A DNA stretch of 64,000 bases from NCBI GenBank assembly GCA_013298895.1, contig JAAFJM010000010.1, forward strand, positions 1 to 64,000. Reading direction: 5' to 3'. This DNA comes from Bacteroidota bacterium. GTDB taxonomy: Bacteria; Bacteroidota; Bacteroidia; UKL13-3. Within the stretch, counting starts at the first letter, position 1. Each line of letters opens with the position of its first letter. The position numbers and the translations under genes are program-made. Below are positions 6,871-20,669 of this stretch, piece after piece. The notes beneath the pieces are model-generated. The model did no database searches. It was not told the origin of the DNA and worked only from the letters and a program-made list of their open reading frames with translations.

Positions 6871-6991
6871 ATTGATTAAATACTTTGAAATATTTTACAA
6901 ATAAACCTTTTTAAATGAAATTGTCAATATTATTATTACATTTCTTGTTGATTAACTTATAAATTTGTGGTTTGATCTTGCATTTGAAAAT

Positions 6992-8119
6992 ATGAAAAAA
7001 TATATACTGTTATTAAGTATTCTTATTGTAAATTCAGTCAACTTATTTTCTCAAATAAACTTTTCAAATTTTGGCATAAATATTAATTATTTCAACGGCT
7101 ACAGCTTTGCTCCAAATAAAATAGAAAAATCTCAGCAAAGTTTGGATGGTTTAGTGCATGGATTCAATATTGGCATCCACAAACAAGTAAATGGTAATAA
7201 AGATTGGCATCAAACATACGGAAATCCAAGAATTGGGTTGAATTTGCAAACCATCTTTATGAATAAACCCGATACTTTTGGGTTTCATGTTTCATTGATT
7301 CCATTTATTCAAATAAATATATTACAATCAAAAAACTCAAACATAAGTGGCAAAATTGGAATTGGTGGTGCATATGCATCGGAGTCATTTAAATTTAGCA
7401 GTAATTTTGATAACCGGGCGGTTAGTTTACCTTTAAATTTTGCATTAGAAGTTGGGGCAGTTTTAAATAAAAAAATAACCAATCAATTAGAATTCAATTT
7501 TGAATTGGGCTATTTTCATTTATCAAACGGAAGTTTTCGAATGCCTAATGGAGGGTTCAATATTTATTATTTAAAAACAGGACTTAGCTATTTTTTTAAC
7601 CAAACTCCACTAAATAAAACGTTAAAAAATAACTTTACCCTAAAAAATAAAACTACTTATTACACAACATATATGGCAGGGGCATATAGAGAACAGGGCA
7701 CTTTTGCCTACAGACGACAATTTCCAATTTTCATATTTCACAATGCCATCATGAGACAATTTAATAAAGTTTATAATTATGGTTTAGGGTTTGACTTATT
7801 TTATGATGCAACACAAAGATTAATTGATGAGCCTGATTTATTGGTGAGTGATGTAAAAGAGAGTGACAAATGGAATGCAGCATTAGGTTTTTGCAATGAA
7901 TTAAATATTGGTAAAATAGCTGTTCCATTAGATTTTTACCATTATGTGTATGACTTAAATGTAGTTAAACAAAAATATTATATACGTTTTGGGCTTACCT
8001 TTTACCCTTATAAAAAATTATTTGTGGGATGTTATTTCAAAGGAAGTATCAATAAATACAAATCATTAGAATCCGATTTTATGGAATTTGCCTTAGGATG
8101 GAGATTTAGGAAACTATAA
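6992..8119 (+). CDS. Acyloxyacyl hydrolase, PagL-like lipid A deacylase
   Basis: A 375-residue outer-membrane beta-barrel. A signal peptide (MKKYILLLSILIVNSVNLFSQ) is followed by alternating hydrophobic strands. The stretch YFHLSNGSFRMPNGGFN carries the His-x-Ser-Asn signature of the PagL family, whose catalytic residues are His and Ser and which removes the 3-O acyl chain of lipid A. PagL itself is about 150-170 residues, so the extra C-terminal half (from about residue 220) is a Bacteroidota-type extension. The frame is open from a TTG at 6965, but the ATG at 6992 starts the signal peptide. A possible -7 element TAAATTTG lies at 6960-6967. Enzyme activity is inferred from the motif. Confidence 0.75.
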   Translation: MKKYILLLSILIVNSVNLFSQINFSNFGININYFNGYSFAPNKIEKSQQSLDGLVHGFNIGIHKQVNGNKDWHQTYGNPRIGLNLQTIFMNKPDTFGFHVSLIPFIQINILQSKNSNISGKIGIGGAYASESFKFSSNFDNRAVSLPLNFALEVGAVLNKKITNQLEFNFELGYFHLSNGSFRMPNGGFNIYYLKTGLSYFFNQTPLNKTLKNNFTLKNKTTYYTTYMAGAYREQGTFAYRRQFPIFIFHNAIMRQFNKVYNYGLGFDLFYDATQRLIDEPDLLVSDVKESDKWNAALGFCNELNIGKIAVPLDFYHYVYDLNVVKQKYYIRFGLTFYPYKKLFVGCYFKGSINKYKSLESDFMEFALGWRFRKL

Positions 8120-8544: not shown

Positions 8545-9090
8545 GTGAAAAAAATACCTTTTTTATACAGTTTGTTTTTAGTTAGCTTTTTGATTGTTTC
8601 TGATAAAACCAAAGCGCAAACATCCAATCAAAAATTTACCGAGGAGACGGTAACAGAAGAGCCTAGTTTAGGTTTAGTGGCTGGATATACGGGTTCTGGT
8701 TATAACATACTTGAAGTTGGAATTGGTTATCAACCTTGGCAAGTTGAAGGATTATTTGTTGAATATCCTTTTGCTGGTTTTTTAGCTTTGTATGAGTTTG
8801 ATCCAAGTAGGAAATTGTATGGAACCAGTTTAAATGCATGGTATTTAAGTGGCTTAATTGCATTTGGGTTAAATGTAAATAGGTATTCTGATTATAAAAA
8901 TGAAACTTATGGAATAAAACCAATGATTGGAATTTCGAGTTATAGAGTTGGACTTATGTGGGGCTACAACTTTTTCCTAAATGGCAATGATATTGAAAAT
9001 TTAAGCAATCAATCAATTACTATTAAGTATTACCACCCTTTATGGAAAAGAAAAAGCGATGACATTTCCAGTAAATATTCATATAGGTAA
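8545..9090 (+). CDS. Small exported outer-membrane-type protein
   Basis: A 181-residue product from a GTG start. A signal peptide ends at KAQ (about residue 25), followed by repeated short amphipathic strands rich in Gly, Tyr and Phe, which suggests a small beta-barrel or beta-sandwich envelope protein. No family is recognised. Its 3' end overlaps the next gene by 32 bases in another frame, so the two are almost certainly co-translated. This puts it at the head of the Lgt-like/radical SAM cassette. Confidence 0.7.
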   Translation: MKKIPFLYSLFLVSFLIVSDKTKAQTSNQKFTEETVTEEPSLGLVAGYTGSGYNILEVGIGYQPWQVEGLFVEYPFAGFLALYEFDPSRKLYGTSLNAWYLSGLIAFGLNVNRYSDYKNETYGIKPMIGISSYRVGLMWGYNFFLNGNDIENLSNQSITIKYYHPLWKRKSDDISSKYSYR

Positions 9091-9817
9091 AATAGAAATT
9101 TCATCGCATTTGGTATGCGAGTTATTGGCTTATAGCATTGGCTTTAGGTATTTTTTGTATTTGCGTAAAAATACCATTGATACCATAAGCACTGAACAAA
9201 GAACATTAATTTTGATAGCGGCTACTTTAGGTTCGTTTGTATTTTCGCGATTGGTTGGTTTTATGGAAACAGCCGAGTTTTTCAATGGTCAAGTTTCGTT
9301 TGCTGGCATGTATGGAAACAAAACCATTTTGGGTGGATTACTTGGCGGTTTATTGGCAGTTGAAATTTGTAAAAAAATAATTGGTGTTACACAATCATCA
9401 GGCGATTTGATGACTTATCCAATTTTGTTAGCTATGATTATTGGTAGAATGGGTTGTTTTTTATCTGGGCTTGAAGATGGCACTTATGGTGTGGAAACAA
9501 CATTGCCTTGGGCTATCAACTTTGGTGATGGTGTTTTTAGGCATCCAACTAATTTATATGAAATTTTATTTTTAGCATTGGTTTGGATAATTATTTACTT
9601 GGCCGAACATCAATTTATACTAGCTAATGGAACCAAGTTTAAATTGTTTTTACTTAGCTATTTTTTATTCCGATTTTTAGTTGAATTTATTAAGCCTGTC
9701 AATACATTTTCATTCGGTTTATCAGCCATTCAAATTACAGCTTTGCTTGGTATTATTTATTATTATAAAATTATTTTATTTCCAAAATCATTAATAGAAA
9801 AACGCAACTATGCCTGA
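9059..9817 (+). CDS. Lgt-family membrane protein with altered active site
   Basis: A 252-residue polytopic inner-membrane protein resembling prolipoprotein diacylglyceryl transferase, which moves a diacylglyceryl group from phosphatidylglycerol to lipoprotein cysteines. Family landmarks are GRMGCF (129-134, normally GRxGNF), HPTNLYE (162-168, normally HPTQLYE) and FRFLVEF (204-210), which holds the C-terminal conserved Arg. Deviations: Asn of GNF is Cys, Asn of FxN is Ser, and the HGG loop reads LGG (91-93), so the histidine important in E. coli Lgt (His103) is missing. It overlaps its upstream neighbour by 32 bases and the radical SAM gene by 8 bases. A standard Lgt role looks unlikely; a modified glycerolipid substrate is an inference. 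Confidence 0.8.
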   Translation: MTFPVNIHIGKIEISSHLVCELLAYSIGFRYFLYLRKNTIDTISTEQRTLILIAATLGSFVFSRLVGFMETAEFFNGQVSFAGMYGNKTILGGLLGGLLAVEICKKIIGVTQSSGDLMTYPILLAMIIGRMGCFLSGLEDGTYGVETTLPWAINFGDGVFRHPTNLYEILFLALVWIIIYLAEHQFILANGTKFKLFLLSYFLFRFLVEFIKPVNTFSFGLSAIQITALLGIIYYYKIILFPKSLIEKRNYA

Positions 9818-11201
9818 AAGAAATTATACTTATTACGACTTTACTTTAAGTCTTTGTCACATTTGCTTAAAAAGAGTTGACACCAAAATTGTATTTGAAG
9901 GCGATAATGTTTATATGCTTAAAAGATGCAATGAACATGGAAGACAAAAGGTTTTAATAGCCACCGATAAAGAGTATTATAAAAACTGTAGAAACTACAT
10001 GAAACCGAGTGAAATGCCAATGAAGTTTAATACAGCTACTCATTATGGTTGCCCTTACGATTGTGGTTTATGTCCTGACCATGAGCAGCATTCATGTTTA
10101 ACAGTTATTGAAATAACCGATAGGTGTAATTTAACTTGCCCTACTTGTTATGCCGAATCATCGCCACACCATGGCCGACACAGAACGGTAGAAGAAGTAG
10201 AAAAAATGCTTGATATTATTGTGGCCAATGAAGGTGAGCCTGATGTGGTTCAAATAAGTGGAGGTGAACCAACTATTCACCCTGATTTTTTTACTATATT
10301 AGATATTGCTAAAACCAAACCTATTAAACATATAATGATTAATACCAATGGTGTACGAATAGCAAAAGATGAAGAGTTTGTGGCCAAGCTTGCTACCTAT
10401 ATGCCTAGTTTCGAAATTTATTTACAATTTGACTCATTTAAAGAAGAAGCATTGGTAAAATTACGTGGTAAGGATTTAAGAGAAACGCGTTTAAAAGCCA
10501 TTGAAAACTTAAATAAATACAACCTATCAACCACTTTAGTTGTAACTATTCAGAAAGGTTTGAATAATGATGAACTAGGCGAAATTATAGAATTTGCACT
10601 TAAACAAAAATGTGTAAGAGGCGTTACTTTCCAGCCAATTCAAGTAGCTGGTAGATTAGAAAGTTTTGACCCTGCAACCGAAAGATATACGTTAACAGAA
10701 TGCAGAACCGATATCATCAATCAGTTTCCTATGTTTTCTGAAAAAGATTTAATTCCTGTCCCTTGCAATCCTGATGCATTGGTAATGGGTTATGCTTTAA
10801 AATTAGAAGGACAAGTTTTTCCATTAACACGCATGATTGACCCATCTGTTTTGTTAAATAATTCAGGAAATACCATTGTGTACGAGCAAGATGAAAAACT
10901 AAAATCGCACTTGTTAAATGTATTTACAACTGGCAATACTGTTGATACTGCTACTAAAGAAATTCAATCTTTATTGTGTTGTTTGCCAGCTATTAATGCA
11001 CCCAATTTAACTTATGAAAATGTGTTTAGGGTAATTATCATGTCGTTTATTGATGCTTACAATTTTGATGTAAGAGCCATCAAAAAATCGTGTGTACACA
11101 TAGTAAATAAAGATGGGAAAATTATTCCATTTGAAACCATGAACATGTTTTACCGCGATGATAAAATTGAAATATTAAATGAATTGCGAAAAGGAAATTA
11201 A
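9810..11201 (+). CDS. Radical SAM protein of the MJ0619/tetraether synthase (Tes, COG1964) family
   Basis: A 463-residue multi-cluster radical SAM enzyme. Cys16/Cys19 (CHIC) with Cys40 resemble a rubredoxin-like site. GCPYDCGLCPDHEQHSC gives Cys81, 85, 88 and 96, probable ligands of an auxiliary cluster. The radical SAM motif is CNLTCPTC (Cys106, 110, 113), followed by the SAM-binding GGEP at 151-154. Further conserved Cys occur late (PVPCNPD, LLCCLP). Motif order matches the archaeal MJ0619 family, one member of which was shown to be the tetraether lipid synthase Tes, which joins lipid tails through C-C bonds. Bacterial members are little characterised. It overlaps the Lgt-like gene by 8 bases, supporting a lipid substrate. 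Family is clear; reaction is inferred. Confidence 0.85.
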   Translation: MPERNYTYYDFTLSLCHICLKRVDTKIVFEGDNVYMLKRCNEHGRQKVLIATDKEYYKNCRNYMKPSEMPMKFNTATHYGCPYDCGLCPDHEQHSCLTVIEITDRCNLTCPTCYAESSPHHGRHRTVEEVEKMLDIIVANEGEPDVVQISGGEPTIHPDFFTILDIAKTKPIKHIMINTNGVRIAKDEEFVAKLATYMPSFEIYLQFDSFKEEALVKLRGKDLRETRLKAIENLNKYNLSTTLVVTIQKGLNNDELGEIIEFALKQKCVRGVTFQPIQVAGRLESFDPATERYTLTECRTDIINQFPMFSEKDLIPVPCNPDALVMGYALKLEGQVFPLTRMIDPSVLLNNSGNTIVYEQDEKLKSHLLNVFTTGNTVDTATKEIQSLLCCLPAINAPNLTYENVFRVIIMSFIDAYNFDVRAIKKSCVHIVNKDGKIIPFETMNMFYRDDKIEILNELRKGN

Positions 11202-11204
11202 GTA

Positions 11205-11474
11205 ATGAAAAACAGTAAAATACATCTAACAAATTTGTTGGTTCTTTTTGGTTATATGGTATTATTAACAATCATTTTTAATGATATGGTTTTAATTATG
11301 AGCATTATTCCAATTGCGGGTCAAATACTTATTAATTTGGGTTTGTGTGTACAGCAATTTAAAAAAGATAGGTCGCTTGCTTATACTTATTTGCTATCCG
11401 CATTTTTAGTATTATTAATCGGTTTTCCTTCGTGTTGGGGTTTTTCAAGTATTGGTAGTCAATTTGCAAAATAG
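11205..11474 (+). CDS. Small three-helix membrane protein, paralog 1
   Basis: An 89-residue protein with three hydrophobic segments (about residues 8-25, 27-46 and 60-75), a short cationic loop after helix two (QQFKKDRS), and a conserved-looking ending LLIGFPSCW. It begins 4 bases after the radical SAM stop. It shares architecture and the helix-three IG-x-x-SC type motif with the next gene, so the two look like a duplicated pair. No family recognised; the operon context suggests a membrane partner of the upstream enzymes. Confidence 0.7.
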   Translation: MKNSKIHLTNLLVLFGYMVLLTIIFNDMVLIMSIIPIAGQILINLGLCVQQFKKDRSLAYTYLLSAFLVLLIGFPSCWGFSSIGSQFAK

Positions 11475-11477
11475 AAT

Positions 11478-11807
11478 ATGAAACATTTTAAATCAATCAT
11501 AGGGTTCAGTTTTTTGATGCTTATTTTAGCGGTTATTACTTTAACACTTTTCAATTTTGATAGTCAGGTTTTACTAATTCCTGTTTTTGTTATTACAGTT
11601 ATAAACTTATTGGCAGCTTTGCATCAATATAAAAAAGGTGAAAAAGTTAAGGCAAATACTTTCATGTTATCTAGCTTATTGATATTAATGATTGGTGGTT
11701 CATCGTGCGTTACTATTAAATTTAAGCGCGATAGAAAAGTGGTACCTAAGCCAGTTATTAAGCAAAAAGACAGTGTAATTAGTATGCTTATATCAAAGCA
11801 CAATTAA
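11478..11807 (+). CDS. Small three-helix membrane protein, paralog 2
   Basis: A 109-residue protein starting 4 bases after its paralog. Three hydrophobic segments, a cationic loop (HQYKKGEK) and LMIGGSSC near residue 77 line up with the previous gene. A basic tail of about 30 residues (KFKRDRKVVPKPVIKQKD) is extra. It is the last gene of the cassette; 87 bases separate it from the HSP90-like gene. Function unknown. Confidence 0.7.
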   Translation: MKHFKSIIGFSFLMLILAVITLTLFNFDSQVLLIPVFVITVINLLAALHQYKKGEKVKANTFMLSSLLILMIGGSSCVTIKFKRDRKVVPKPVIKQKDSVISMLISKHN

Positions 11808-18938: not shown

Positions 18939-19271
18939 TTAACAAAGTTTCCTGCACTTGGTCTGAATTATGATTTATTTGTCTTCGGTCAGTTTTTCAC
19001 AGACCATTTTATGTAAGTCTTATTAATAACAACATTTATAACAAAAAAAGTAAAGTCATTCCTTAGGAATCTCCTTTGTAAGGAAACAAAGTTAGCTAAT
19101 GGATAAGTCATTTCTTTTTTTCTTCTTTCTTTTTCCATTTGCCTTTGGTTGGTGTTTTCACCGACCAATTTATGTATGTATTACTAATACCAATATTTAT
19201 AAAAAAAGTTAAGTCATTTCGTAGGAATCTCCTTTGTGTGGCAACCAAGTTAGCTAATGGACAAACACTTT

Positions 19272-19426
19272 CTTTTTACTTTTTGTTTGGGCAAAAAGTA
19301 AAGCAAAAAGCCCACCACTAAATCCAAATTTCAATTTTTCTTTCGCACTTCCCAACGTCACTCGGGCCGAAAAATTAAAATTTCGCGCATTTAGTGGACA
19401 TCCACCCACACCACTTTTTCCGCTCC
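19272..19426. repeat. R2 structured repeat, copy 1 (155 bp)
   Basis: Begins with a hairpin (CTTTTTACTTTTTG / CAAAAAGTAAAG). A long imperfect inverted repeat then runs from CCACTAAAT to ATTTAGTGG, and the element ends in CCGCTCC. Exactly 155 bp like the other three copies, from which it differs at only a few bases. Confidence 0.9.
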
Positions 19427-19565
19427 TTTTTTTGTCTTCGGTCAGTGTTTTCACAGACCATTTTATGTAAGTCTTATTAACACCAATATTTATAAAAAAA
19501 AGTCAAGTCATTCCAAAGGAATCTTCTTTGTATGGCAACCAAGTTAGTTAATGGATAAGTCACTT

Positions 19566-19720
19566 CTTTTTACTTTTTGTTTGGGCAAAAAGTAAAGCAA
19601 AAAGCCCACCACTAAATCCAAATTTCAATTTTTCTTTCGCACTACCCATCGCCACTCGGGCCGCAAAATTAAAATTTCGCGCATTTAGTGGACATCCACC
19701 CACACCACTTTTTCCGCTCC
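19566..19720. repeat. R2 structured repeat, copy 2 (155 bp)
   Basis: Same length and layout as copy 1, 294 bp downstream of it. Preceded by an R1 module whose hairpin reads GGTCAGTG-TTTT-CACAGACC. Confidence 0.9.
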
Positions 19721-19748
19721 TTTTTTTTGAGTTGATTTGAAATCGACA

Positions 19749-19788
19749 ACAAACGTCACTGCGAGGAACGAAGCAGTCTCAAGCGATA
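19749..19788. repeat. Dispersed repeat R3, copy 3
   Basis: Includes the trailing CGATA also present at 15081 and 20185. Followed by an R1 module. Confidence 0.9.
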
Positions 19789-19983
19789 CGAGGTTTAGGT
19801 TGGTTGTTAATGGAGTAAATAAGTATTTCATAACTTTGCCTGTGGTCGGTGTTTTCACCGACCATTTTATATAAGTCTTATTAATAGCAATATTTGTAAC
19901 AAAAAAAATCAAGTCATTCCGTAGGAATCTCTCTTTATGGCAACCAAGTTAGCTAATGGATAAGTCATTTCTTTTTTATACTT

Positions 19984-20138
19984 CTTTTTACTTTTTGTTT
20001 GGGCAAAAAGTAAAGCAAAAAGCCCACCACTAAATCCAAATTTCAATTTTTCTTTCGCACTACCCAACGCCACTCGGGCCGAAAAATTAAAATTTCGCAC
20101 ATTTAGTGGACATCCACCCACACCACTTATTCCGCTCC
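19984..20138. repeat. R2 structured repeat, copy 3 (155 bp)
   Basis: Same length and layout as the other copies. The preceding R1 hairpin at 19851-19874 has the perfect stem GGTCGGTG / CACCGACC. Confidence 0.9.
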
Positions 20139-20184
20139 TTTTTTTTGACTTGATATGGTTAATTAAGTTGATTAGAAATCTACA

Positions 20185-20224
20185 ACAAACGTCACTGCGA
20201 GGAACGAAGCAGTCTCAAGCGATA
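20185..20224. repeat. Dispersed repeat R3, copy 4
   Basis: Core identical to the other copies. R3, R1 and R2 follow each other here in the same order as at 19749-20138. Confidence 0.9.
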
Positions 20225-20416
20225 AGAGAATGAAGTTGATTAGTTTATGGAGTTGATAAGTATACAACTTTGCCTTTGGTTGGTGTTTTCACCGACCAAT
20301 TTATGTTTGTCTTACTAATACCAATATTTATAAAAAAAGTAAAGTCATTCCGTAGGAATCTCCTTTGTAAGGCAACAAAGTTAGCTAATGGATAAGTCAT
20401 TTCTTTTTTATACTTT

Positions 20417-20571
20417 CTTTTTACTTTTTGTTTGGGCAAAAAGTAAAGCAAAAAGCCCACCACTAAATCCAAATTTCAATTTTTCTTTCGCACTACCCAC
20501 CGCCACTCGAGCCGAAAAATTAAAATTTCGCGCATTTAGTGGACATCCACCCACACCACTTGTTCCGCTCC
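20417..20571. repeat. R2 structured repeat, copy 4 (155 bp)
   Basis: Last copy of the array, ending about 100 bp before the stop of the methyltransferase-HIT gene. Same hairpins as the other copies. Confidence 0.9.
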
Positions 20572-20669
20572 TTTTTTGTTTGTTGAGTAAATTTAGTTGA
20601 TAGCTTATGGCGTTGAAGGATTGTGGGAGTTTACAGGTGCGTTTTGGGAATTTTTAATTGTAAACATCA

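Follow-up and report, generated by a model that had tools for sequence, protein, structure and literature searches.

A co-conserved trio: an Lgt-subfamily protein, a radical SAM enzyme related to Tes and TrsS, and small membrane proteins with a C-terminal cysteine

RESULTS

Co-occurrence of the Lgt-like and radical SAM genes

The stretch of DNA analyzed here, hereafter the window, comprises 64,000 nucleotides (positions 1 to 64,000 of contig JAAFJM010000010.1, assembly GCA_013298895.1) from a Bacteroidota bacterium of the lineage UKL13-3. It carries, on the forward strand, a compact cassette whose core components are a membrane protein of an Lgt subfamily (252 aa, 9059 to 9817), a radical S-adenosylmethionine (SAM) enzyme of the Tes/TrsS (COG1964) superfamily (463 aa, 9810 to 11201), and two small membrane proteins, named M1 (89 aa, 11205 to 11474) and M2 (109 aa, 11478 to 11807). 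We found that the Lgt subfamily, the Tes/TrsS-like radical SAM enzyme and one or more small proteins ending in a cysteine are a co-conserved trio in several phyla, and we hold it practically certain that this three-part module is real and recurrent. The trio is apparently undescribed so far: literature searches on Lgt together with radical SAM enzymes, on TrsS and on lipidation of C-terminal cysteines brought up no account of it.

Scanning one genome per species, we located the radical SAM gene at 65 loci, most of them in Bacteroidota. The Lgt-like gene was present at 61 of them, and at 47 of these both matches lay within 60 bases. We also used an evenly drawn sample of 296 Bacteroidota genomes, with subfamily cut-offs of >790 bits for the radical SAM enzyme and >240 bits for Lgt; these genome-wide scans were profile searches only. 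The radical SAM subfamily was found in 22 genomes, the Lgt subfamily in 23, and neither in 273. A preliminary description of this DNA, made from its letters alone, had staked a joint role on co-conservation of the two genes across genomes. Such co-conservation held: all 22 radical SAM genomes also had the Lgt subfamily, in 20 cases adjacent and in two on different contigs (Fisher p = 2e-32, kinship of the genomes ignored), and it extended to other phyla. In one genome (G034), the Lgt, radical SAM and small-protein genes were located on three separate contigs. Within the window's own genus, the cassette was found in one of nine other genomes searched, and in none of the other relatives searched. 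The module is therefore accessory, with a patchy distribution, and the two genes do not occur together merely because a neighbourhood was inherited.

Small membrane proteins with a C-terminal cysteine

Usually, one to three small membrane open reading frames (ORFs) lie downstream of the radical SAM gene. They are highly divergent, yet nearly all of them end in a hydrophobic transmembrane (TM) helix, a cysteine and a short tail, commonly with the sequence L-I-G-F-S-T-C. In M1, a candidate lipidation substrate, the motif G73-F-P-S-C77 (11421 to 11435) closes the last TM helix and leaves 12 residues to the C-terminus. M2, 31% identical to M1, has G73-G-S-S-C77 (11694 to 11708), and its tail is longer (32 aa) and basic. 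In an alignment of hand-picked small proteins (A3), the mean identity was 20%, and the only invariant columns were the cysteine and a glycine at position −4.

We then counted the feature in ORFs, which, unlike A3, gives an unbiased number. Among small TM ORFs immediately following the radical SAM gene, 74 of 85 encoded a C-terminal cysteine after a hydrophobic stretch, compared with 9 of 74 of those elsewhere in the same loci (Fisher p = 6e-23), and at least one such protein was encoded at 52 of 63 loci. Across 90 small proteins, the glycine at −4 was common, not universal (52/90), and the residue just before the cysteine (−1) was mostly T, V, I, S or L. Lysine and arginine residues averaged 1.8 ahead of the last helix versus 0.7 in the tail. 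No conserved partner cysteine was seen in A3. A C-terminal histidine, for which we know no reason, was present in 24 of the 90, often as (N/G)-hydrophobic-His (e.g. loci L019, L023, L036 and L039).

Searched against the window's own genome, the A3 profile gave strong matches to M1 and M2 only. It matched 12 of 22 cassette-positive and none of 23 cassette-negative genomes. Several cassette genomes missed by the profile have a small protein by inspection, for instance between the Lgt and radical SAM genes in G012 and directly downstream in G170 and G088. Neither Pfam nor NCBIfam has a family that includes the small proteins, so the link between the parts of the module is invisible in present annotation. 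The features of a lipoprotein substrate, namely a signal peptide II at the N-terminus and a small residue ahead of the lipobox cysteine, were not found in them; the cysteine lies near the C-terminus instead. The NCBIfam model invert_tail (NF058595, 'lipo-invert C-terminal anchoring') scored 11.5 bits on M1 against a cut-off of 37. Because this is far below the cut-off and sub-threshold matches occurred in all control genomes, the model was discarded.

The Lgt-like protein keeps the fold and core motifs of Lgt

The Lgt-like protein matched PF01790 with 77.9 bits, above the Pfam gathering score of 24.9. With TIGR00544 it reached 39.6 bits, below the equivalog cut-off of 118.9, which leaves it outside canonical Lgt. 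Its AlphaFold model (predicted local distance difference test, pLDDT, 93.9) had E. coli Lgt (5AZB) as its only clear structural match (Z 13.6 over 240 residues; Foldseek E 2.3e-7); the VIA-align list showed no further Lgt-like solved fold, a result that excludes nothing. In the Lgt-like alignment (A1), the motif residues R130, RHP161-163, YE167-168 and R205 were invariant or nearly so. R130 (in GRxG) and R205 (in FRxxxEF) were invariant and align to 5AZB; we take them to correspond to the catalytic arginines R143 and R239 of the E. coli enzyme.

In the Lgt tree, a branch with support 98 separated the cassette Lgts of three phyla from canonical Lgts and two unassigned ones. An Lgt without a radical SAM partner, from genome G017, nested among the cassette Lgts. 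A single clade of cassette Lgts was rejected by the approximately unbiased test (p = 0.003), the constraint having forced out this nested G017 protein. A canonical-type Lgt is also encoded in the window's own genome.

The radical SAM enzyme has the fold and metal sites of Tes

The radical SAM enzyme matched Radical_SAM (PF04055, 102.8 bits) and PF23545, the zinc ribbon of the former MJ0619 'HMPTM' family (61.3 bits). Its best NCBIfam model was TrsS (NF045646), with 330.6 bits over nearly the full length against a cut-off of 490; Tes (NF045702) gave 280.8 bits against a cut-off of 450. As both scores are below their cut-offs, the enzyme lies inside the superfamily and outside both named families. 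The closest solved relative by sequence was Tes (7TOL, E 4e-63). The predicted model (pLDDT 75, with a weak stretch at 351-398) matched Tes 7TOM with Z 36.5 and a root-mean-square deviation of 3.1 over 397 residues, and the next family followed at Z 17, so the protein has the GDGT-MAS fold.

In the radical SAM alignment (A2), the rubredoxin-type ligands C16-C19-C40-H43 were invariant, with the same pattern as Tes C9-C12-C33-H36. They lie in an N-terminal rubredoxin-like/zinc-ribbon domain (residues 8-51, 9831 to 9962, PF23545). The auxiliary N-terminal [4Fe-4S] motif C81-C85-C88 plus His (GCPYDCGLCPDHEQHSC, 10050 to 10097), also invariant, matches Tes C73/C77/C80 plus His. The CxxxCxxC motif C106-C110-C113 (10125 to 10148), within the Pfam Radical_SAM match, was invariant as well. 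The enzyme keeps all metal-site ligands of Tes (those of the rubredoxin site, the N-cluster and the radical SAM cluster) as well as the labile Met (equivalent of Met439). Tyr459, strictly conserved in archaeal Tes and reported to be dispensable for activity, is replaced by Ile431.

Two further assignments were rejected. A PADLOC match that would have indicated a defence system (55 bits) reflected the generic radical SAM core only, through viperin. In the radical SAM gene of a distant Bacteroidota genome, G156, a supposed in-frame TGA for selenocysteine is most simply the normal stop of a 450-aa ORF.

Reach of the module and relatives without Lgt

The trio was also found in two more distant Bacteroidota (G156 and G121) and in Mycobacterium branderi, the M. 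avium plasmid pS2b, Nonomuraea and genome G096, where the radical SAM enzyme is only about 29-35% identical to that of the window (about 29% in the mycobacteria and Nonomuraea). The mycobacterial arrangement of Lgt, small hypothetical proteins and radical SAM enzyme is plasmid-borne (locus L098 for M. avium pS2b, L097 for M. branderi). Small proteins read in this last group, from trios other than that of M. avium, end in ...SGGLCTGLNPADYAG, ...SAGICTGINPSLYG or ...SGGMCIFLPQPL. Those read in M. branderi and Nonomuraea have basic residues of the RRKP/RRPW type, then a helix, SGGLC, TVGVC or SAGIC, and a TGxNPxxYxG-like tail. In Undibacterium, a lipoprotein-like gene lies between the Lgt and radical SAM genes, and the cysteine of the small protein follows an N-terminal helix. 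The conserved C-terminal cysteine and the reach of the module beyond Bacteroidota are both new relative to the preliminary description.

In the G156 cassette (L078, 4784-5858), genes for an isoprenylcysteine-methyltransferase (ICMT)-like membrane enzyme and a DUF4395 protein lie between the radical SAM and Lgt genes. ICMT normally methylates a C-terminal lipidated cysteine, and because of this usual substrate the ICMT-like gene would fit C-terminal lipid-cysteine chemistry. In Nannocystis sp. RBIL2 (L067, 9836-10590), the Lgt-like and radical SAM sequences are broken into merged fragments that lie in different frames, which looks like either decay of the cassette or a fault of the assembly.

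On haloarchaeal and Mycolicibacterium plasmids (L094, L096 and L113), COG1964-type radical SAM enzymes are paired with a methyltransferase and no Lgt, which suggests another use of the same superfamily. One homologous radical SAM gene elsewhere adjoins genes for CcdA and a disulfide oxidoreductase.

Gene order and neighbours in the window

The Lgt-like and radical SAM ORFs overlap by 8 bases, and gaps of 3 bases each separate the radical SAM gene from M1 and M1 from M2. Upstream, an ORF for an exported protein (181 aa, 8545 to 9090, forward strand) overlaps the Lgt-like ORF by 32 bases. The preliminary description had reported these five ORFs with the same positions and spacing, and it read the second protein as Lgt-like, the third as having the MJ0619/Tes-type motif order, and M1 and M2 as paralogues. 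All of this agrees with our results, including the cysteine motifs as it quoted them. Its view of the first protein as exported, small and barrel-like was borne out in part: there is a signal-peptide-like N-terminus, while the barrel-like character was not confirmed, with no Pfam or NCBIfam match above cut-off. A homologue of this protein was found at only two of the 65 loci, the nearest ones (L003 and L004), so we regard it as a lineage-specific neighbour and not as part of the conserved core.

A gene for a PagL-like outer-membrane protein (lipid A 3-O-deacylase, PF09411, 46 bits; 6965 to 8119, forward strand) is located 425 bases upstream of the cassette. Elsewhere in the window (19138 to 20577), there are two adjoining large tandem duplications of 294 and 433 bases, with two copies each, about 90% alike.

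DISCUSSION

A proposed route to a lipidated C-terminal cysteine

We propose, with a probability of roughly 45% for its general form, that the cassette is a dedicated system in which the Lgt-like enzyme lipidates a C-terminal cysteine and the radical SAM enzyme alters the lipid tail. First, the small protein would insert into the membrane with its last helix running outward from a basic cytoplasmic loop, leaving the cysteine at the periplasmic face, placed like the h-region and lipobox of a prolipoprotein. The basic residues ahead of the last helix and their scarcity in the tail suggest, by the positive-inside rule, that the cysteine is periplasmic, the side on which Lgt acts. Second, the Lgt-like enzyme would transfer a diacylglyceryl-type group from a phospholipid to this cysteine, a step towards which we lean. 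Third, the small protein would probably remain uncut by LspA, since T, V or I usually precedes the cysteine, unlike the small residue of an LspA site; the lipid would then sit on the C-terminal end of a helical hairpin.

Fourth, the radical SAM enzyme, presumably cytoplasmic, may perform C-H chemistry on a lipid tail, which could belong to the donor phospholipid or to the lipid already attached. These are its most natural substrates, given that Tes takes up two lipids and houses their tails in hydrophobic pockets, and we put the chance that the enzyme acts on lipid at a little below even. Tails might even be joined at the iso-branched ends common in Bacteroidota; such chains, as argued in PMC8941075, have the same ends as archaeal isoprenoid chains. 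We consider tail-to-tail coupling improbable. The fullest version, in which a dedicated Lgt puts a Tes-like-coupled glycerolipid on the C-terminal cysteine as a cross-linked or membrane-spanning anchor, would be a new class of protein anchor, and we regard it as a long shot. In general terms, the outcome would be a microprotein of the inner membrane that bears an unusual lipid modification.

Several points weigh against this proposal. All of its steps are inferred from computation, and the topology of the small proteins was called from simple hydropathy and charge only. The rows of A3 were chosen partly for the motif, so the invariance of the cysteine there is partly by construction. By the ORF screen, 11 of 63 loci have no such small protein, and in Chitinophaga the cysteine is missing from some second copies. 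G017 is the sole genome among the 296 with the Lgt and no radical SAM enzyme. The ligands of the N-terminal auxiliary cluster are missing from the radical SAM enzymes of the actinobacterial cassettes. In the tree of radical SAM enzymes, made by a quick method and with some long branches, Tes and the haloarchaeal type fall between two separate groups of Lgt-linked enzymes, which are therefore not one clade; the partnership is thus either old with losses or arose twice. To our knowledge, coupled fatty acids are not known in the bulk lipids of cultured Bacteroidota.

Alternative functions

Instead of lipidating a protein, the Lgt-like and radical SAM enzymes could make a free unusual glycerolipid, cross-linked or membrane-spanning like branched glycerol dialkyl glycerol tetraethers (brGDGTs) or diabolic acid, with the small proteins as subunits or scaffolds. 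The Tes fold of the radical SAM enzyme would suit this role; Tes makes such lipids (PMC9433317, PMC8941075) and bacterial Tes homologues have been proposed for brGDGTs. Nevertheless, we judge it unlikely, because the known acceptor of Lgt is a protein cysteine, a scaffold needs no conserved cysteine at the working face of Lgt, and the radical SAM score is under the Tes cut-off. The preliminary description had supposed that the cassette makes or attaches an unusual, possibly cross-linked or membrane-spanning, glycerolipid. The Lgt and Tes folds keep a lipid role plausible; rather than a free membrane glycerolipid, however, the cassette more probably yields a lipid carried by the cysteine of the small protein. 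The cross-linked or spanning form has the Tes fold in its favour; the enzyme falls outside strict Tes, and no result shows tail coupling or a spanning product.

The trio might also resemble the pathway of a ribosomally synthesized and post-translationally modified peptide (RiPP), with the radical SAM enzyme modifying the small peptide (e.g. by a thioether or C-C link) and the Lgt-like enzyme lipidating it, as in diacylglycerol (DAG)-RiPPs. Many radical SAM enzymes mature peptides, several peptide maturases were among the weaker NCBIfam matches, Bacteroidota are known to make RiPPs lipidated through Lgt (PMC12636315), and the recurrent C-terminal histidine (24/90 tails) could be read in this way. 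We find it quite unlikely: with only the cysteine and usually the glycine at −4 conserved, a peptide site for the radical SAM enzyme is hard to name, and the predicted topology places the cysteine on the side opposite the cytoplasm. It is similarly doubtful that the Lgt-like protein has ceased to act as a diacylglyceryl transferase and that the trio handles another membrane substrate, such as a quinone, hopanoid or sulfur lipid, with the cysteine as thiol relay or disulfide partner. In favour of this reading, Lgt-like proteins widely miss the canonical equivalog cut-offs (39.6 versus 118.9 bits here) and homologous radical SAM genes elsewhere adjoin methyltransferases and, once, CcdA with a disulfide oxidoreductase. 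Against it, the whole family retains the Arg, RHP and YE residues of the Lgt motifs, and the C-terminal cysteine has no conserved partner.

Comparison with known systems

As far as we know, Lgt is credited with a single kind of target site, the N-terminal lipobox. If our proposal of C-terminal lipidation is true, a separate Lgt branch, microproteins ending in a cysteine and a Tes-like radical SAM enzyme would make up a second lipidation pathway. The function of bacterial Tes homologues, which belongs to the open brGDGT question, would gain concrete candidates: a gene trio, a single cysteine, and cultured carriers in Mucilaginibacter and Chitinophaga.

The cassette radical SAM enzyme resembles Tes/GDGT-MAS (MJ0619; NF045702; 7TOL/7TOM) in its whole fold, cluster ligands and labile Met; it differs in being bacterial, in its linkage to an Lgt-like enzyme and small proteins, and in having Ile in place of Tyr459. 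TrsS, a radical SAM (seleno)protein (NF045646) for which our literature search found no function, is its best-scoring NCBIfam model, but the enzyme is below that cut-off. Bacterial Tes homologues proposed for brGDGTs belong to the same superfamily, whereas the available parts of the reports (PMC8941075, PMC11868695) mention no Lgt or small-protein partner. With Lgt (PF01790; 5AZB), the cassette protein shares the fold and core motif residues, but the cassette Lgts lie across a tree branch and score under TIGR00544.

DAG-RiPPs (PMC12636315) are likewise small ribosomal products lipidated through the Lgt pathway, with examples in Bacteroidota; unlike the cassette, they use an N-terminal lipobox, LspA and multinuclear non-heme iron-dependent oxidative (MNIO) enzymes, with no dedicated Lgt and no radical SAM enzyme. 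For MYXO-CTERM proteins, the targets of myxosortase, lipidation of a cysteine in the C-terminal region by an Lgt-like enzyme has been proposed (PMC11980579). They share with our small proteins a conserved cysteine beside the C-terminal TM helix. However, their order is cysteine, TM helix and Arg-rich tail, with the helix cleaved off, whereas the cassette proteins fall outside this class, having the TM helix first, then the cysteine and mostly a short tail.

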